From: Candidatus Abyssobacteria bacterium SURF_5
GTDB taxonomy: Bacteria > Abyssobacteria > SURF-5
Direction of reading: 5' to 3'
Length of the DNA stretch: 29,008 bases
Assembly: GCA_003598085.1 (NCBI GenBank)
Contig: QZKU01000028.1
Location: 1 to 29,008, forward strand
Made by a program: the position numbers and the translations under genes
In this document: piece by piece, positions 14,975-23,896 of the stretch
Layout: each line of letters opens with the position of its first letter
Position numbering within the stretch: the stretch's first letter is position 1
The notes under the pieces: generated by a model
Databases searched by the model: none
The model's input: the letters and a program-made list of their open reading frames with translations, nothing else
Told to the model about the DNA's origin: nothing

Positions 14975-17071
14975 CTAGACGACGGCCGTTACCGCTTCCA
15001 GTATATCCTTTGCGAAACCGGCCACCGCCGGATGCGTAAGCAGCTCTTTCAGGCCGTTGCCTCCTTCCAAACCTTGCGCATAATAATCGAGCAGCACGGC
15101 CAGTTTTTCCTTTGCATTCTGCACGCTGAAATCGATCTCGTTCTCCGGGTCCTCGCCGGCCTCGACGGCTTTCGCAAGCAGTGCCGTTAATCCGGCTCCC
15201 GCTTCCGAAAGCATTGCCGGCACATCGACTCTCGGCTGCCTGAGATGATCGGCCAGCGACTTCAGGATCGAAGAAGCGTCGCGCCGAAGATCGGACACCG
15301 TCTCATGCAGTTTCGACTCAGGATAATCGAGCACCTGCGTGGCGGCATGGGCTACGCCGAGCAGGGCCATTTCGGCGTCCTGTATCTTCATGTCGCGAAT
15401 GTACCTGGGGTCTTCATTCAGATACTCTTTTGCGTAAGGAAGACTGCCGTCGTCCTTGATGTCTTTGCCAAAGAAGTAGTATCTCTTTGCGGGCGGAATG
15501 CGGATGTGACGGTTGACCGGATCGACCTTGTCTTTTAGAAATGCGTAGGCCGCCTTCATCTCTGTGTATTTCGCCTGGGTCCTCATGAAACTCGAGGGCT
15601 CCCCGAAATGCTGTTTCCAGCGCTGCTCCATCTCCTTCACCATCTTGCGAACGCGTCCGTTCGGGGCGAACCGCTCCATGGCAGGGATCATCACATAGCC
15701 TTGAAATGCCTTCTGGCGATGGAACTCCGCGATCTGCCGGAAATGCTTGTCGTCGTACTTCCGATACCGCTCATAGCCGTTGAAATGAACCTTGAGGAAC
15801 CGGAGAAGAGTCGGGCCCCACGTCTGGAGCAGGCGCTCGTCACCCTGCCGGATGAACTCCATGATCTCGTGCTCGTACAGATGCTTGTGGATCATGCCGC
15901 CGCCGTAGAAGCTGACGTCTTCCCACTTGAACGGTTTTACCCGGCCTTCCTCCTTCAGGCGCTTGTAGAGCGGAGTGCCGGGGTAGGGGGTAACCCGCGT
16001 GAGCTGAGCCGCCGTCGGCTCGCACTCGAGCAGGTACTGGAAGTCCTCCTCGAGTATCTCGCGCGTGTGAAAATCGAATCCGGCCATCCAGCCGATCATT
16101 GTGCCGATGCCACGCGCATACAAATTGTGGAGGATCTGTTTGGCGTCGCCCGCACGCTTGCCGTACCCTTGGTCGGGAGCAAACTTCGATTCCAGCCCAA
16201 TAAACATGCTCTTCACGTTGTTGTGGGCCATCTCATCAAGGTCGTTGTACAACGAGAGCGTATTGATACTGATGAGGATGGTGATGCTGAACGTCGAGAA
16301 ATCAATCTCCGGATCCGCGCGGAGCAGGCGCCCCACCTCGTTGATAAAATTTTTGTCCTGATCCTCTTCATAAATAATGATGTTTGTGCCCGGCAGCCGG
16401 TTCTGCCACATCTTGATCTCGTTCTTTAACTCCTGCGGACTAACCATTGTGTGGCGTTGTCCGCCAAACAAAGTCGTGGTCGTGCAAAAATCGCATCCTC
16501 GATTGCAGCCGAGAGCAGCTATCATCGCCGTTGTATCGCCGGGAGGCCAGCGGTCGATCCACCACGGACTGCCCATCGCGCAGCGCGGCAAATAATGCTG
16601 GCGAACCGGCGCCTTCACATCATCGCCGAGACGCTCCCTGAACCAGCGGATGCCGTCCCCGAGCACCAGGTGGTCCGCAAGCTTTTTCCATTCCTCCTGC
16701 GGATAATACGCCCCGACGCTCTGCGCGAGGAATCCGCCCAGAACGATCTCGCTCTTCGGCGAGTATTTTCGGACCACCCGGCACATCTCCATGACTCCCT
16801 CAAAGCTGGGTGTCAACGCTGAAATGCCGACAATGTCATAGCCCTTCTTTATCTCCTCGATCCAGTTCTCGACCGTCGGATGATCGAGAACGGTGGCGGG
16901 CGCAGAAATATTCTGCGCAATGATGAAAGGACCAATAAGATGCATGTGCGCCTCAAAAGTAAAGATCCCCTGGCCCTTGAAGAACCGCTGGCGCATAATA
17001 TCCGTTGGCGTGTCATGCCAAGGTTGCAGCGGGTATGGCGTGGTTGGAGTTGCGAGAAGGACGCGTTTCAC
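14975..17071 (-). CDS. B12-binding-domain radical SAM protein
   Basis: A 698-residue protein with an N-terminal cobalamin-binding-like Rossmann domain (about residues 1-150) and a radical SAM core. The 4Fe-4S cysteines are Cys189, Cys193 and Cys196 (GCNRGCDFC). The N-terminal domain includes YDIVGISALTPSFEGVMEMC and IVLGGF. The motif order resembles large anaerobic B12-radical SAM proteins such as BchE-like and HpnJ-like methylases and cyclases. The C-terminal third (about 430-698) is mainly helical and I do not recognise it. It starts with GTG at 17071, preceded by a run of six Gs at about 8 bases. It has its own strong promoter, a palindrome overlapping the transcription start, and its own terminator, so it is monocistronic. 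The substrate is unknown; modification of a lipid or other small molecule is possible. Confidence 0.88.
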   Translation of the reverse strand: MKRVLLATPTTPYPLQPWHDTPTDIMRQRFFKGQGIFTFEAHMHLIGPFIIAQNISAPATVLDHPTVENWIEEIKKGYDIVGISALTPSFEGVMEMCRVVRKYSPKSEIVLGGFLAQSVGAYYPQEEWKKLADHLVLGDGIRWFRERLGDDVKAPVRQHYLPRCAMGSPWWIDRWPPGDTTAMIAALGCNRGCDFCTTTTLFGGQRHTMVSPQELKNEIKMWQNRLPGTNIIIYEEDQDKNFINEVGRLLRADPEIDFSTFSITILISINTLSLYNDLDEMAHNNVKSMFIGLESKFAPDQGYGKRAGDAKQILHNLYARGIGTMIGWMAGFDFHTREILEEDFQYLLECEPTAAQLTRVTPYPGTPLYKRLKEEGRVKPFKWEDVSFYGGGMIHKHLYEHEIMEFIRQGDERLLQTWGPTLLRFLKVHFNGYERYRKYDDKHFRQIAEFHRQKAFQGYVMIPAMERFAPNGRVRKMVKEMEQRWKQHFGEPSSFMRTQAKYTEMKAAYAFLKDKVDPVNRHIRIPPAKRYYFFGKDIKDDGSLPYAKEYLNEDPRYIRDMKIQDAEMALLGVAHAATQVLDYPESKLHETVSDLRRDASSILKSLADHLRQPRVDVPAMLSEAGAGLTALLAKAVEAGEDPENEIDFSVQNAKEKLAVLLDYYAQGLEGGNGLKELLTHPAVAGFAKDILEAVTAVV

Positions 17072-17112: not shown

Positions 17113-17134
17113 AATGAATGAAGCTTCAGTCATT
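17113..17134. promoter_or_regulatory. Palindromic operator candidate at the radical SAM gene
   Basis: An inverted repeat centred between 17123 and 17124 has arms AATGAATGAAG and CTTCAGTCATT, pairing at 10 of 11 positions. It starts at the predicted transcription start of the minus-strand gene, a usual place for repression. Its TGAATGA...TCAGTCA core resembles fatty-acid-type TetR (FadR-like) operators, but that likeness is only by eye. Confidence 0.55.
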
Positions 17135-17200: not shown

Positions 17201-17229
17201 TTGACATGTTGGAGTATTGGCGTTATAAT
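17201..17229 (+). promoter_or_regulatory. Consensus sigma70 promoter of the TetR gene
   Basis: TTGACA (17201-17206) and TATAAT (17224-17229) are both perfect and spaced by 17 bases. Such a strong promoter next to an operator is what one expects for a tightly repressed, autoregulated gene. Confidence 0.85.
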
Positions 17230-17245
17230 GTGAATAGATATTCAC
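17230..17245. promoter_or_regulatory. TetR operator copy 1
   Basis: GTGAATAGATATTCAC has perfect 7-base arms around a 2-base centre and begins immediately after the -10 hexamer, covering the expected transcription start. The same arms recur at 18558-18573. Binding by the adjacent TetR protein is inferred from position and repetition. Confidence 0.8.
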
Positions 17246-17264
17246 ATCATGAGGTAAGCCTTCT

Positions 17265-17870
17265 ATGGCATCCGAAAAACTGAAAACAGAAATCAGGCGC
17301 GAGCAGATAGCCGAGGCCGCACTCGGCGTGATCGCCATGCACGGGATCAAAGGATTAAATGTCGCGCGTATTGCCCGCCGAATCGGCTTGGTACCCTCGG
17401 CGCTTTACCGGCACTTTCGAGGAAAAGACGAAGTACTTGACGCCGTCCTTGCCATGATCGAGCAGCGCCTGCTGGAGAATGTGGACGTTGCGCGGCGCGA
17501 GCAGCCCAGCGCGCCCGAGCGCCTGCAGCTTCTCCTGCGACTGCACATCAAGTTCATCCGCGAGAACCAGGGCGTGTTGCGGGTGATCTTTTCCGAGGAC
17601 CTGTTTGGTGGGAAACCTGCCCGCAAAGCCCGGGTGTACGGGATGATTCGCCGGTATCTGCACAAGATTGAGGAAATCGTGCGCGAGGGGCAGGCGCAAA
17701 ATGTTTTTCGTTCGGAGCTGAATCCGGAAACCGTTTCAATCATGTTCCTGGGGCTGATTCAGCCGGCGGCGATCCTGTGGAACATGAGCGACGGAGAGTT
17801 CGATGTGACGCGACATTCAGAAAAAGCGTGGAATATCTTCAGCGAAATGATAGTCCGGACGGGCCGGTAG
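17265..17870 (+). CDS. TetR/AcrR-family repressor of the efflux operon (CecR-like position)
   Basis: A 201-residue TetR-family regulator. The N-terminal helix-turn-helix (about residues 10-55) reads IAEAALGVIAMHGIKGLNV followed by ARIARRIGLVPSALYRHFRGKDEVLDAV, matching the family pattern, with a helical ligand-binding domain after it. It sits 20 bases downstream of a palindrome overlapping its own promoter, so autorepression is likely. It begins the same gene order as the E. coli cecR-ybhGFSR efflux locus. The matching palindrome before the adaptor gene implies direct control of the exporter. The inducing ligand is unknown. The DUF6448 gene follows after 29 bases. Confidence 0.9.
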   Translation: MASEKLKTEIRREQIAEAALGVIAMHGIKGLNVARIARRIGLVPSALYRHFRGKDEVLDAVLAMIEQRLLENVDVARREQPSAPERLQLLLRLHIKFIRENQGVLRVIFSEDLFGGKPARKARVYGMIRRYLHKIEEIVREGQAQNVFRSELNPETVSIMFLGLIQPAAILWNMSDGEFDVTRHSEKAWNIFSEMIVRTGR

Positions 17871-17899
17871 GGCCGCGGCCCTGCAAAAGGAGGAAAAAA

Positions 17900-18514
17900 A
17901 TGAAACCGCTACAAATTGTCTATGTGAGTCTTCTCGCAGCCGGTCTTCTTTTCATCCGCTCAAGCATCGGGTTTGCTCATTGCGACACGATGGATGGCCC
18001 CGTGGTAATTGATGCTCAAGCGGCGCTGCAGAAGGGCGACGTGACGCCGGTGCTGAAATGGGTGGCGCCGGAACAGGAATCTGAAATCAGGGGGGCCTTT
18101 CAACAGACGCTTGCCGTGCGGGAACTTTCCCCCCAAGCGCGCGATCTCGCCGATAGGTATTTTTTCGAGACCCTGGTGCGGGTCCACCGTGCGAGCGAGG
18201 GAGAGCCGTATACCGGCCTTAAACCGGCAGGACAGGAACTCGAGCCTGCCGTCGCCGCAGCCGACCGCGCGCTGGAAACAGGAGAAGTTGACGGTTTGTT
18301 GAACATGGTACAGCGGGATTCGGCCGAGGGCATTCGTCACCGATTCCATCGCGATCATGAGGCGAAGCAGCATGCGGGCGAGAGCGTTGCCGCAGGAAGA
18401 GAATATGTAAAGGCATATGTGGAATTCGTTCATTACGCCGAACGCCTTCATAACGATGCGACTGCAGCGGCCCATCATGTGGCGGCGCCCAAGGATCGCG
18501 GCCACGCTCATTGA
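17900..18514 (+). CDS. Exported His-rich DUF6448-type protein
   Basis: A 204-residue protein with an N-terminal hydrophobic signal (about residues 1-26, ending SSIGFA) and a mature end beginning HCDTMDGPVV, the hallmark of the DUF6448 family. No function is established for the family. The predicted mature protein is helical and rich in histidine (RHRFHRDHE, HYAERLH, AAHHVAAPKDRGHAH at the C-terminus), which suggests metal binding in the periplasm, an inference only. The start is well defined: AAAGGAGG lies 7 bases before the ATG. It lies between the TetR gene and the exporter genes, 29 bases after the former, and is probably co-transcribed with the regulator. Confidence 0.8.
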   Translation: MKPLQIVYVSLLAAGLLFIRSSIGFAHCDTMDGPVVIDAQAALQKGDVTPVLKWVAPEQESEIRGAFQQTLAVRELSPQARDLADRYFFETLVRVHRASEGEPYTGLKPAGQELEPAVAAADRALETGEVDGLLNMVQRDSAEGIRHRFHRDHEAKQHAGESVAAGREYVKAYVEFVHYAERLHNDATAAAHHVAAPKDRGHAH

Positions 18515-18557
18515 ACGCTCCAGATTTCTTAAACCGGTTTTGGTTTTTGGTTAAGAA

Positions 18558-18573
18558 GTGAATATGTATTCAC
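18558..18573. promoter_or_regulatory. TetR operator copy 2, before the adaptor gene
   Basis: GTGAATATGTATTCAC carries exactly the same 7-base arms as the site at 17230-17245, differing only in the two central bases. It ends 11 bases before the adaptor ATG. A weak TTGGTT (18540-18545)/TATGTA (18563-18568) pair with 17-base spacing overlaps it, so it may control an internal promoter. Confidence 0.78.
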
Positions 18574-18584
18574 AAGAGGGACCC

Positions 18585-19739
18585 ATGAGAACGAAGAAAA
18601 TAAGAGTGCTGATATTGCTGGTGCTGGTGTCAATTGGCTCCGTCGTTGCCATCAGCTTTATCCCGTTTCGGGAAGAAGAAGAGAATGCGATCCGAATTTC
18701 GGGAAATATAGAGGCGACCGACATAGCCGCAAGCTTCAAAATAGCGGGTCGTCTTGAAGAGCGCCTGGTGTCCGAGGGGGAGATGATTGGACGGGATCAA
18801 CCGGTGGCTCGCCTCGAGCAAACGGAGTTGTTGCAGGAGGCGGCCATGTACAGGGCTGAACTAGCCTCCGCGCGAGCCGCTCTTGCCGAACTTGAAGCCG
18901 GTTCTCGTCCGGAAGAGATAGCAAAGGCGGAAGCCGCCGTTAACAAGGCTGAGGCAAATCTGGCCGCGTTGATTGCCGGATCACGGAGGCAGGAGATAGC
19001 CGCGGCGCGGGCAGTCGTGGATCGCGCCCGCGCCGAGGCGGCTCGCCTTAAATCGGATTTCGCTCGCCAGGAATACCTTTATGAGAATGGCATCTCTTCG
19101 GATAGAGAGTTTGACGCTGCCAAAACCGCATACGAGATGGCCGAAGCCCGGGTTAAGGAAAGCGTCGAGCAGATGCAGCTTGTTGAAGAAGGGCCGCGGC
19201 AGGAGGAGATCGATGCGGCGCAGGCAGCCCTTGTTGAAGCCCGCGAGCAGTACAACCTGGTAAAGAAAGGGCCGCGAATCGAAGTGATCGAGCAGGCGCG
19301 CGCTCGCGTCGAGCGGGCGGAGCAGGCTTTTGCCATAAGGGAAACGAAGCTGGCCTACACAAATCTACGCTCGCCTCTCACCGGAATTGTCCTTTCGGAG
19401 CAGGCCGAACCAGGCGAGTACGTGAACGCGGGATCGCCGATCATCGTCGTGGGCGATCTGGAGAACGTTTGGCTTCGCGGATACGTCAATGAAACCGATC
19501 TGGGAAGGGTAAAGCCGGGACAATCGGTTCGGGTGACCGCCGATACGTATCCAGGCAAAGTATATAATGGCACGATTTCCTTTATCTCTTCCGAGGCAGA
19601 GTTCACTCCGAAAAACATTCAGACCCAGGAGCAGCGCGTCAAGCTTGTTTATCGGGTAAAGATTGATATCTCGAACCCTCGACTCGAGTTGAAGCCGGGA
19701 ATGCCCGCAGACGCGCAAATTCTGCTGGGCGGAGCGTAA
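18585..19739 (+). CDS. HlyD-family membrane-fusion (adaptor) protein, YbhG-like
   Basis: A 384-residue periplasmic adaptor with a single N-terminal membrane anchor (about residues 7-26), a split lipoyl domain (IAASFKIAGRLEERLVSEGE... and LRSPLTGIVLSEQAEPGEYV), a long alpha-helical hairpin and a beta-barrel region. The hairpin contains four related GxRxxEIxxA units (AGSRPEEIAKAEAAV, AGSRRQEIAAARAVV, GPRQEEIDAAQAAL, GPRIEVIEQARARV), typical of this adaptor branch. ATG 18585 is preferred because AGAGGG lies 4-5 bases upstream; an in-frame GTG at 18558 would place the operator inside the gene. The protein would link the ABC-2 permeases to an outer-membrane channel, for which no gene is in the window. 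Confidence 0.92.
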   Translation: MRTKKIRVLILLVLVSIGSVVAISFIPFREEEENAIRISGNIEATDIAASFKIAGRLEERLVSEGEMIGRDQPVARLEQTELLQEAAMYRAELASARAALAELEAGSRPEEIAKAEAAVNKAEANLAALIAGSRRQEIAAARAVVDRARAEAARLKSDFARQEYLYENGISSDREFDAAKTAYEMAEARVKESVEQMQLVEEGPRQEEIDAAQAALVEAREQYNLVKKGPRIEVIEQARARVERAEQAFAIRETKLAYTNLRSPLTGIVLSEQAEPGEYVNAGSPIIVVGDLENVWLRGYVNETDLGRVKPGQSVRVTADTYPGKVYNGTISFISSEAEFTPKNIQTQEQRVKLVYRVKIDISNPRLELKPGMPADAQILLGGA

Positions 19740-19742
19740 CGG

Positions 19743-20675
19743 ATGGAAACGATTAAAGTGCAATCGCTCAGCAAAAAATTCAACGGCAACCCCGCCGTCC
19801 AAGGCCTTACATTTTCGGTTGAAGAAGGTGAACTGTTCGGGCTCGTCGGTCCGGACGGCGCGGGCAAAACGACAACTTTGCGGATGCTGGCGTCGATCCT
19901 CGATCCGACTTCCGGCGACGCGTGGGTCGGCGGTTTTCACGTAACTGAAGAAGCGGAGCGGATCAAAGAGATTATCGGATATATGGGGCAGCGCTTTGAT
20001 TTGTATCCGGACCTGACCGTGATGGAAAACATCACCTTTTACGCCGATATCTACGAGGTGCCCCGCAGAGAGCGCAAGCAGAAGATTGAGCGGTTGCTTG
20101 CATTCAGCAATCTCGGGCCGTTTACGAAGAGGCTGGCGGGGAATCTGTCCGGAGGCATGAAGCAGAAGCTCGGGCTCGCCTGCTCGCTCGTGCATACTCC
20201 GAAAGTGCTTTTTCTCGATGAACCCACAAACGGAGTTGATCCGGTCTCGCGGCGCGACTTCTGGCGCATCCTGTACCAGTTGCGGAAGGAGGGCGTCACG
20301 ATTCTGGTTTCGACCGCATACCTGGACGAGGCGGAACGCTGCAACCGGCTGGTCCTCATGCATCAGGGGCAAAGCGTGGCCTCCGGTTCGCCTGACGAAC
20401 TGAAAAGACTTGTTCAGGGCGATTTCGTCGAGATTCGGGCGCCGCAGCCGCGCGTCGCGGCGCAAGTGCTCAGACGGGATGGGGGTATGGGAATGGTCGA
20501 GTTGTTTGGCGAGCGCATTCATCTGCTTGCCGACGATTTCGAATCGGCGGCGACGCACGCACGCACGGTCCTCGATAAACATGGAATAGCGACAGACGAA
20601 ATTTTTCGCGTCGAGCCGTCGTTGGAAGACGTGTTCGTCACCATCCTTGCGGGGAAGCGGGTGAGTGATAGGTGA
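19743..20675 (+). CDS. ABC transporter ATPase 1 (YbhF N-half-like)
   Basis: A 310-residue ABC ATPase. Walker A is GPDGAGKTT (about 36-44), the Q-loop glutamine is Gln83, the signature is LSGGMKQK (135-142) and Walker B is VLFLDEPTNGVD (155-166). The switch-loop histidine is replaced by Ala192 (STAYLDEAE), while the partner ATPase keeps STHYMDEAE-like His197. GPDGAGK in place of GPNGAGK resembles the first half of the fused E. coli YbhF. The gene starts 3 bases after the adaptor stop and overlaps the next gene by four bases (GTGA), so the products are probably made together as a heterodimer. The C-terminal region (about 215-310) is the usual accessory domain of drug-exporter ATPases. Confidence 0.93.
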   Translation: METIKVQSLSKKFNGNPAVQGLTFSVEEGELFGLVGPDGAGKTTTLRMLASILDPTSGDAWVGGFHVTEEAERIKEIIGYMGQRFDLYPDLTVMENITFYADIYEVPRRERKQKIERLLAFSNLGPFTKRLAGNLSGGMKQKLGLACSLVHTPKVLFLDEPTNGVDPVSRRDFWRILYQLRKEGVTILVSTAYLDEAERCNRLVLMHQGQSVASGSPDELKRLVQGDFVEIRAPQPRVAAQVLRRDGGMGMVELFGERIHLLADDFESAATHARTVLDKHGIATDEIFRVEPSLEDVFVTILAGKRVSDR

Positions 20676-21643
20676 ACGGGAGAAGCGATATAGCCGTCCG
20701 GGTGAAGGATTTGCAAAAAAGATTCGGCGATTTCACCGCCGTCAACCGGATCAGTTTCGACGTTAGGGAAGGTGAGATCTTCGGATTTCTCGGGCCGAAT
20801 GGGGCCGGAAAATCCACTACCATAAAAATACTCACCGGCATCCTGAAAGCAACGGGCGGAGAGGGGACTGTCGCCGGCCTCGACATTTTCACTCAGAGAG
20901 CACTCATCAAGTCGCACATCGGTTACATGAGCCAGAAATTCTCGCTCTATGAGGATCTTACGGTGGAGGAGAATATCGACTTTTACAGCGGCGTCTACAA
21001 AATCCCTCCGGCAAAGAAGAAGGCGCGCAAGGAATGGGTGATCGAGATGGCGGGGCTTGCTCGACATCGCAACAGCAGAACCGGCGTGCTCTCAGGCGGC
21101 TGGAAACAGCGGCTGGCATTGGGCTGCGCCATCCTGCATGAACCACCAATCCTGTTTCTTGACGAGCCAACCTCGGGCGTTGACCCAATCAGCCGCCGCC
21201 GGTTCTGGGACCTGATATACGACCTCTCAGAGAAGCGCGTCACGGTCTTCGTAACCACTCATTACATGGATGAAGCCGAATACTGCAATCGATTGGCGCT
21301 TATTTATCGCGGTGAGATCATCGCTTCCGGCTCGCCCGGCGAACTCAAACGGAACTATATGAACGGCGACGTGCTCGATCTGTCGTGCGATCAGCCGCAG
21401 GAAGCGCTCTCCGTGCTCGAGAAAGCACCTTCCATAAAAGAAGCCGCTCTGTTCGGGGGAGGCATTCATATCGTTGCGGATAACGGTGAAGCCGCAGCCG
21501 CGGATATCCGCAAGCGCCTCGCGCAGTCCGGCTTTACCGTCAGACGGATTGAGAAGATTTCGCCCTCGCTCGAGGACGTGTTTGTTTCTCTCATTGAAGC
21601 CGGCGCACGCAGCGCCCCGCCTCAGCAGGAGGTTGGCAGATGA
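20672..21643 (+). CDS. ABC transporter ATPase 2 (YbhF C-half-like)
   Basis: A 323-residue ABC ATPase with all catalytic motifs intact: Walker A GPNGAGKST (41-49), Gln88, signature LSGGWKQRL (140-148), Walker B ILFLDEPTSGVD (160-171) and switch His197 in TTHYMDEAE. It starts with GTG in a GTGA overlap with the preceding gene and ends in an ATGA overlap with the first permease. It likely pairs with the degenerate ATPase 1 to power the two permeases. In E. coli YbhF these two ATPases are one polypeptide. Confidence 0.93.
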   Translation: MNGRSDIAVRVKDLQKRFGDFTAVNRISFDVREGEIFGFLGPNGAGKSTTIKILTGILKATGGEGTVAGLDIFTQRALIKSHIGYMSQKFSLYEDLTVEENIDFYSGVYKIPPAKKKARKEWVIEMAGLARHRNSRTGVLSGGWKQRLALGCAILHEPPILFLDEPTSGVDPISRRRFWDLIYDLSEKRVTVFVTTHYMDEAEYCNRLALIYRGEIIASGSPGELKRNYMNGDVLDLSCDQPQEALSVLEKAPSIKEAALFGGGIHIVADNGEAAAADIRKRLAQSGFTVRRIEKISPSLEDVFVSLIEAGARSAPPQQEVGR

Positions 21644-22770
21644 GAACGATGAGAGTCGCCGCGATAGCCAGAAAAGAATTCATCCATGTTATCCGCGATC
21701 CGAGGAGCCTCGCGATGGGAATAGCGATTCCTATGCTGCTGATCGTGCTTTTCGGATACGCGCTCACCCTTGACGTTGATAACGTGCCGATGGTCGTTTG
21801 GGATCAGGACTCAACGCATAGCAGTCGAGAGCTTGTCAGCAGATTCCAGGGCTCGCGCTATTTCTCGATCAGAGACTATATCGATGACTATGCCGAACTC
21901 GAGCGGTACATTGATTCCGGAAAAGCGGGGATCGTGCTTGTGATCCCGCCCGGTTTCTCGATCGGGATCGAGAGCGGCCGCCAAACCTCGGTTCAGCTTA
22001 TCGTTGACGGGAGCGACTCGAACACCGCAACCATAGTCATCGGCTACGCCGATGCCGTTCTGTTCGATTATGGAGGCGATGTGGCCGCCGCCTTCTCTGA
22101 ATTCGGTGGAAGAAAAATCGCTCCTCCTGTTGATTTCAGGCCGCGTGCCTGGTACAACCCCGATCTGGAATCGAGAAATTACATTATCCCGGGGCTGATC
22201 GCGGTCATTATGATGGTAATCGCCGCCCTCATGACATCGCTGACCATTGCAAGGGAATGGGAGCGCGGCAGCATGGAGCGCCTAATCTCGACTCCCGTGA
22301 GGACCGAGGAGTTGATTCTCGGCAAATTGATTCCTTATTTTTCGATCGGGATGCTGGATGTTGCGCTGGCAGTCTTGATGGGCGAGTTCCTGTTCCAGGT
22401 CCCGTTGCGCGGCACGGCGGCTTTCGTTTTCTTGATGGCGGCGATTTTCCTTGCGGGCGCTCTGGGTCTGGGGATGCTTATCAGCATCGTTACAAAAAGT
22501 CAGCTATTGGCCAGTCAGCTTGCGATGGTGCTCACCTTCCTGCCCTCGTTCCTGCTGTCCGGCTTCATGTACGCAATCAGCAACATGCCGGTGGCGGTTC
22601 AAATCATCACCCACCTGGTTCCCGCCCGCTACTTCGTCAGCCTCTTGAAAGGCATTTACCTGAAGGGAATCGGCCTCGAGATTCTCTGGCTCCAGGCTGC
22701 CCTGCTCTTGCTCTTCGGGATCGGCATTCTTGCCCTCGGCAAACTAAAGTTGAAAAAGAAACTGGGGTAG
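21640..22770 (+). CDS. ABC-2 permease 1 (YbhS-like)
   Basis: A 376-residue ABC-2-type permease. One N-terminal membrane helix (about 25-45; AMGIAIPMLLIVLFGYAL) is followed by a large extracytoplasmic domain (about 50-175; containing VQLIVDGSDSNTA) and five C-terminal membrane helices. KEFIHVIRDPRSLAM at the N-terminus and EWERGSMERLISTPVRTEELILGKLIPY are family hallmarks. It overlaps ATPase 2 by four bases and is followed after 4 bases by the second permease, with which it likely forms a heterodimeric pore. Confidence 0.93.
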   Translation: MRTMRVAAIARKEFIHVIRDPRSLAMGIAIPMLLIVLFGYALTLDVDNVPMVVWDQDSTHSSRELVSRFQGSRYFSIRDYIDDYAELERYIDSGKAGIVLVIPPGFSIGIESGRQTSVQLIVDGSDSNTATIVIGYADAVLFDYGGDVAAAFSEFGGRKIAPPVDFRPRAWYNPDLESRNYIIPGLIAVIMMVIAALMTSLTIAREWERGSMERLISTPVRTEELILGKLIPYFSIGMLDVALAVLMGEFLFQVPLRGTAAFVFLMAAIFLAGALGLGMLISIVTKSQLLASQLAMVLTFLPSFLLSGFMYAISNMPVAVQIITHLVPARYFVSLLKGIYLKGIGLEILWLQAALLLLFGIGILALGKLKLKKKLG

Positions 22771-22774
22771 CGGC

Positions 22775-23896
22775 ATGACGTGGGAACGCATAAAGCATCT
22801 GGTCAAAAAGGAATTCATTCAGGTCTTCCGAGACCCGAGGATGAAGGGGGTCATTTTCCTCATGCCCATCATCCAGGTCCTCGTGTTCGGATATGCAGTA
22901 ACCACCGATCTTCGGGAGGCCAGGACCGCGGTGCTTGATTTCGACGACACCATAGCCAGCCGCGAGTATATCTCCAAGTTTGCCGAATCGCGCTACTTTG
23001 ACATCAGGTATGTACAGGATGAGCGCGAAATTCATCGATTAATGGACAGGGGAGGCGTGCAGGCCGCACTTGTCATCCGTCATGGATTTGAAAACGATGT
23101 TCGAGCCGCTCGCGCCGCTCCCGTTCAGTTCATCGTTGATGGGACTGATTCGAATACCGCCGGCATCCTGCTGGATTACAGCGCACGGATCACCCGCCGG
23201 TTCTCGGGTGAGGTCACCATGAACCGTCTTTCCCTGCGATCACAGCCGGCCTCTCCCATTGAGGTCGAGACAAGGGCATGGTTCAATGAGAACCTTGAAA
23301 GCCGCGCATTTTACGTGCCCGGTGTAATAGCGATCATCGTGATGTTGATCACACTGATGCTCACCAGCATGGCCATCGTGCGAGAGAAGGAGATCGGGAC
23401 AATGGAACAATTGCTTGTGACGCCGCTTTCGGCTCCGGAATTCATTATCGGCAAAATGCTCCCGTTCGCATTGATCGGGCTTGTCGATGTTTTGGCGGTG
23501 ACACTGGTAGCCGTGTTCTGGTTCGAGGTCCCCGTCCGCGGGAACCTGTTTCTGTTGTTGATATCCGCCGTGCTTTTTCTTCTCACAACGCTCGGCGTCG
23601 GCTTGTTTATCTCGACAGTAAGCGGCACCCAGCAGCAGGCAATGATGACGACGTTCTTCTTCTATTTTCCGGCTGTCCTGCTCTCCGGTTTTATGTTCCC
23701 TATCGCCAACATGCCCTTGCCGGTCCAATGGTTGACCTATATCAACCCCTTGCGCTATTTTCTCGTGATCATCCGCGGCATCTTTCTGAAGGGTGTCGGC
23801 ATCGACATCCTGTGGCCGCAGATGCTGGCTCTGGCGCTGCTCGGCGCCGGCATACTTGGACTCGCCGTTTATCGGTTTGGAAAAACAAGCTCGTGA
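22775..23896 (+). CDS. ABC-2 permease 2 (YbhR-like)
   Basis: A 373-residue ABC-2 permease of the same architecture as permease 1 and clearly related to it: VKKEFIQVFRDPRMKG, an extracytoplasmic domain with VQFIVDGTDSNTAGI, then REKEIGTMEQLLVTPLSAPEF and the C-terminal helix bundle with NPLRYFLVIIRGIFLKG. It starts 4 bases after permease 1 and ends the exporter operon; the following gene has its own promoter. The exported compound is unknown; YbhGFSR-type systems are linked to drug and cation tolerance. Confidence 0.93.
   Translation: MTWERIKHLVKKEFIQVFRDPRMKGVIFLMPIIQVLVFGYAVTTDLREARTAVLDFDDTIASREYISKFAESRYFDIRYVQDEREIHRLMDRGGVQAALVIRHGFENDVRAARAAPVQFIVDGTDSNTAGILLDYSARITRRFSGEVTMNRLSLRSQPASPIEVETRAWFNENLESRAFYVPGVIAIIVMLITLMLTSMAIVREKEIGTMEQLLVTPLSAPEFIIGKMLPFALIGLVDVLAVTLVAVFWFEVPVRGNLFLLLISAVLFLLTTLGVGLFISTVSGTQQQAMMTTFFFYFPAVLLSGFMFPIANMPLPVQWLTYINPLRYFLVIIRGIFLKGVGIDILWPQMLALALLGAGILGLAVYRFGKTSS

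Follow-up and report, generated by a model that had tools for sequence, protein, structure and literature searches.

A paired palindrome at an exporter locus of Candidatus Abyssobacteria bacterium SURF_5 is the putative operator of an autoregulated, strictly local TetR switch

The closest described counterpart of the locus presented here is the CecR (YbiH)/ybhGFSR system of E. coli, in which a TetR-family gene lies upstream of, and in the same orientation as, the genes for an HlyD adaptor, the ABC ATPase and two ABC-2 permeases. More generally, local TetR-family efflux repressors are autoregulated and have the exporter as their neighbour; the arrangement with repressor and exporter in equal orientation has been termed ‘type II’ (PMC6790063). 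The window (the whole stretch of 29,008 nucleotides that was analysed) contains a block of this kind on the plus strand, ending at 23896. The tetR gene (17265–17870, 201 residues) is followed by a DUF6448 gene, an HlyD-family periplasmic adaptor (18585–19739; YbhG-like, 28% identical to E. coli YbhG), two ABC ATPases (19743–20675 and 20672–21643; 44% to the N half and 51% to the C half of YbhF, respectively) and two ABC-2 permeases (21640–22770, 39% to YbhS; 22775–23896, 33% to YbhR and 35% to YbhS over 343 residues). An adaptor, tandem ABC ATPase domains and two ABC-2 permeases, with identities of 28–51% and E values of 1e-40 to 1e-84 against the E. coli proteins, define a YbhGFSR-type exporter. 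The match to cecR-ybhGFSR that had been proposed in an earlier note on this DNA thus holds for the exporter genes, which are homologous and equally ordered, but not for the rest: its regulator is a protein other than CecR, the single fused YbhF of E. coli is represented by two genes, and the inserted DUF6448 gene is lacking in E. coli. The palindrome before cecR, TCTTAATCAATCATTTGATTAAGA, is also unlike the GTGAAT-N4-ATTCAC of the window. From local TetR efflux repressors in general, the locus differs in having within the gene block a second, identical operator copy at which no promoter is visible, and in an exporter class that varies with lineage (ABC-2, RND/MMPL or MFS).

The regulator carries the TetR_N helix-turn-helix (PF00440, 43.6 bits against a Pfam cut-off of 24), and a palindromic candidate operator is found at its own promoter in all 27 orthologous loci, both of which place it in the TetR family. 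Its C-terminus is of the TetR_C_24/TetR_C_4 (YsiA-like) type. The CecR_C domain (PF09209), which scores 120.9 bits in E. coli CecR, is absent, and BLASTP aligns the two proteins at 23% identity over 95 residues with an E value of 2.3, the similarity being confined to the DNA-binding part; orthology to CecR was therefore rejected. A search of genome contigs with this TetR returned remote matches only.

The 16-base palindrome GTGAATANNTATTCAC occurs at 17230–17245 (OP1, GTGAATAGATATTCAC) and at 18558–18573 (OP2, GTGAATATGTATTCAC). The tetR promoter P1 is a TTGACA-17-TATAAT sequence at 17201–17229 on the plus strand, with the same hexamers and the same spacing in the orthologs; its −10 hexamer ends on the base immediately before OP1. 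Together with its flanks, OP1 forms a 20-bp palindrome, ATGTGAATAGATATTCACAT (17228–17247), whose first two bases are also the last two of the −10. Between OP2 and the adaptor ATG (18585) there are 11 bp. Both palindromes, the perfect promoter directly before the first of them and the 11-base spacing of the second had been described in the earlier note, and all were borne out. The result named there as a refutation, many copies at unrelated sites, did not occur: OP1 and OP2 are the only exact copies in the 5,103,455 bases of the genome, where about 0.02 would be expected by chance (5.1e6/4^14, a simple estimate) and the reversed pattern, used as a control, has none. Allowing one mismatch adds a single site (C73:4687), with no credible open reading frame nearby; allowing two adds seven more, giving 10 in all compared with 2 for the control. 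A wider regulon was rejected, since the one-mismatch site lacks a credible gene and the remaining sites, with two mismatches, are not far above the control.

Just upstream of this region lies a divergent promoter (TTGACA-17-TATACT, 17169–17141, minus strand) for a radical-SAM/B12 gene at 14975–17071. A separate palindrome, AATGAATGAAGCTTCAGTCATT, is found at 17113–17134, just downstream of the −10 of that promoter, and probably serves another regulator as its operator.

Conservation was followed in 26 further loci, chosen by similarity of the TetR protein alone (35–64% identity) and not by the motif; they come from the same family and several other phyla and, with the window, make 27 loci at 35–100% identity, which share descent and are not 27 independent events, although their tree has several deep branches. 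OP1 is present 25–35 bp before the tetR start in 27 of 27, its 10-base core being perfect in 25 and carrying one mismatch in the other two. In 22 loci it adjoins, with a gap of 0 bp, the −10 of a TTGACA-17-TATAAT-type promoter. OP2 precedes the first exporter gene in 21 of the 27 loci (14 perfect, seven with one mismatch). In the 277 kb of ortholog loci, 40 copies of the perfect core were counted, almost all of them at the OP1 and OP2 positions, while the reversed pattern does not occur at all; these counts, together with those for the genome, rule out a chance origin of the pair. In the operator profile GTGAA and TTC are invariant, the remaining arm bases are nearly so, and the AT flanks are conserved. 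One ortholog (G041) whose TetR is 53% identical has a site identical to that of the window, and the site is absent at TetR-family paralogs of 26–28% identity. Across the 26 ortholog-bearing genomes, the exact 12-base sequence GTGAATNNNNATTCAC is found once or twice per genome, always at the tetR locus with one exception in G394 (C247:32488); this lies near one 249-residue reading frame, and none of the reading frames of at least 100 residues within 3 kb encodes a TetR or an exporter. A literature search on the operator found nothing relevant.

An additional operator-like copy was seen in G437, about 165 bp upstream of OP1 (L064, 629–644 and 793–808, in reverse-complement coordinates), where it lies near a divergent second TetR gene. 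Weaker copies with one mismatch are found at the matching place in G426 and G281.

We infer that TetR binds both copies (core GTGAA-N6-TTCAC, usually ATGTGAAT-N4-ATTCACAT), which flank its own gene block, and would thereby repress both tetR and the exporter; its release would require a ligand, which is probably a compound that the exporter transports. Since OP1 covers the end of the −10 and the region where transcription from this near-consensus sigma-70 promoter should start, a bound dimer should block initiation by RNA polymerase. OP2 immediately precedes the ribosome-binding site of the first exporter gene, and its likeliest role would be a second gate on read-through from P1. Such a roadblock would place the exporter under tighter control than tetR and DUF6448; alternatively, OP2 may contain a weak or cryptic promoter. 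Repressors acting as roadblocks to elongation have precedents (PMC6237814, PMC3711431 and PMC4132739). The occurrence of OP1 in every locus supports the self-regulated circuit that had been suggested earlier, and the genome-wide counts make the small regulon suggested with it a strictly local one, predicted to comprise this locus only. An autoregulated local switch of this kind, in which binding would be by TetR itself, is well supported, and the paired sites very probably constitute a self-regulating switch that turns export on and off and is private to this locus. We consider the explanation as a whole (TetR on two operators, repressing itself and controlling the exporter, with a local regulon and OP2 most likely a roadblock) to be highly probable.

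A different function of the regulator, in nucleoid occlusion (SlmA-like) or in lipid regulation (FadR-like) and not in efflux repression, is suggested by its resemblances: FadR and SlmA are its closest matches both in the PDB and among NCBIfam models, and the SlmA site GTGAGTACTCAC, a string that occurs with SlmA in PMC3116907, shares a GTGA half with the window operator. The scores, however, are 75.5 bits for FadR (cut-off 200) and 72.6 bits for SlmA (PRK09480, cut-off 120), far below the equivalog cut-offs, and membership in either group was rejected. The window operator also differs as a 16-bp site with a centre of 4–6 bases and in its local regulon. Sites of SlmA are dispersed over the chromosome, whereas the operator motif has two exact genomic sites, both at the exporter locus; in all loci that were resolved, the ortholog has an exporter as its neighbour. 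Because dispersed sites are lacking, this reading is refuted, and we regard it as extremely improbable. Hardly more credible is the idea that OP2 acts at the RNA level, forming a small hairpin in front of the ribosome-binding site of the exporter, and not as a DNA operator. The inverted repeat is adjacent to that site and can indeed pair as a 6-bp stem closing a 4-base loop, but the region folds no better than shuffled sequences (z 0.29). Moreover, OP2 has the same letters as OP1, which would be transcribed from P1 only in part, and pairing in RNA would not by itself require identical half-sites.

More weight has to be given to the possibility of two transcription units, the exporter having a promoter of its own, weak or non-consensus, under the control of OP2. 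This was the idea of the earlier note, which had suggested that the exporter and DUF6448 may have separate promoters. The window itself offers some grounds for it, with OP2 located 687 bp behind tetR, past DUF6448 and separated from the DUF6448 stop by a 43-bp gap, and the distances from OP2 to the start codon would suit a short leader. In G281, OP2 is immediately preceded by a strong terminator-like hairpin, suggesting that the exporter there needs a transcript start of its own; G426 and G437a look alike by eye. A search for a terminator before OP2 in the window found none. Promoter scores point the other way: sigma-70 scores are far above background at OP1, while the best ones at OP2 are near background (p 0.02–0.75 in 21 loci), so that no sigma-70 promoter stands out there in any locus. 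The 60 bp upstream of OP2 contain no conserved hexamers or other element in 13 non-redundant loci, apart from the AT flank of OP2 itself. A sigma-54 promoter at OP2 was likewise rejected, the best matches to TGGCAC-N5-TTGC reaching 5–8 of 10 positions with no position conserved; those upstream of OP1 reach 5–6 of 10, slightly under the values at OP2. The position of OP2 also argues against a separate promoter, as in three genomes (G438, G437b and G436) it is located within tetR, about 50 bp into the reading frame from its 3′ end. In three others (G439, G394 and G393) it begins 6–12 bp past the tetR stop, and among the six of 27 loci that lack OP2 an exporter gene follows tetR within 20–32 bp in five, the sixth (G449) having DUF6448 in between. 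A gate on read-through fits this combination (no trace of a promoter at OP2, OP2 inside or just behind tetR, short gaps where OP2 is missing) better than a separate promoter does, and we judge OP2 likelier to act as a roadblock to read-through or through a cryptic promoter than with a clear promoter of its own. The proposal of two transcription units is accordingly possible but rather doubtful. The roadblock as such would have about an even chance, and a cryptic promoter a lower one; the roadblock is clearly less certain than binding by TetR, because a hairpin precedes OP2 in G281 (G426 and G437a appear similar on inspection) and OP2 is lacking in six of 27 loci.

The exporter behind the TetR and its operators is not always of the ABC-2 type. 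In G155 and in six genomes of family f69 (L075–L081), the TetR/operator pair precedes an MMPL/RND exporter wherever the contig was read, followed, where reading went further, by LolA-like and DUF1302 proteins; these assignments come from Pfam for the G155 set and from resemblance for the f69 genes. In G388 (L066, 3683–6450), the genes behind a TetR that has OP1 but no OP2 encode an HlyD adaptor and an MFS exporter. In the tree, the RND group is nested in the operator clade as one well-supported clade; the MFS case adjoins an ABC case. Since ABC-2, RND/MMPL and MFS exporters are all found behind one TetR/operator pair, regulator and operator stay the same while the exporter type varies; such a conserved regulatory cassette, with a cargo exchanged between lineages, is what is new here. 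In its fullest form, the proposal would be that of a portable cassette of a previously undescribed TetR clade, combining a composite promoter-operator with a promoterless roadblock copy, whose exporter has been exchanged more than once under unchanged control. We put this forward tentatively, its chances falling a little short of even.

The DUF6448 gene (PF20046; 17900–18514, plus strand) starts 29 bp behind tetR and therefore probably shares one transcript with it. Its product is predicted to be exported, with an HCDTMDGP motif after the signal peptide and a histidine-rich C-terminus; these ends, as HCD-x2-[DS]-GPV after the signal peptide and a His-rich tail, are shared between the window protein and those of L061 (3777–4361, reverse-complement coordinates), L082, L120 and L116. 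The gene occurs in eight of 27 genomes (the 26 ortholog-bearing ones and G001), directly behind this tetR in six; in G447 it is on another contig, and in G001, where it also occurs, the TetR is lacking. Elsewhere its neighbours, some of them named from sequence resemblance only, include hemerythrin and ScdA/RIC-like di-iron proteins (G281, G426, G001, G299), a FeoB-like protein (G347) and another TetR (G181). There are hints here of a role in the envelope connected with metal or redox stress, and the HCD start raises the possibility of a Ni-superoxide-dismutase-like fold. A search for sequence matches of DUF6448 in the PDB gave none, a single-sequence fold of the window protein was poor (pLDDT 57), and a literature search on the family found nothing relevant.

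The predicted circuit is of an ordinary kind, unusually well supported by sequence alone. It provides a testable operator for an unnamed TetR clade that extends across several poorly studied bacterial phyla, and the target genes should be predictable in any genome from the 16-base pattern. DUF6448 would be placed under control shared with the exporter locus. If OP2 is indeed a roadblock, the system would represent a natural example of a TetR-family repressor controlling elongation as well as initiation, and also of a regulatory pair that persists while the exporter is swapped.
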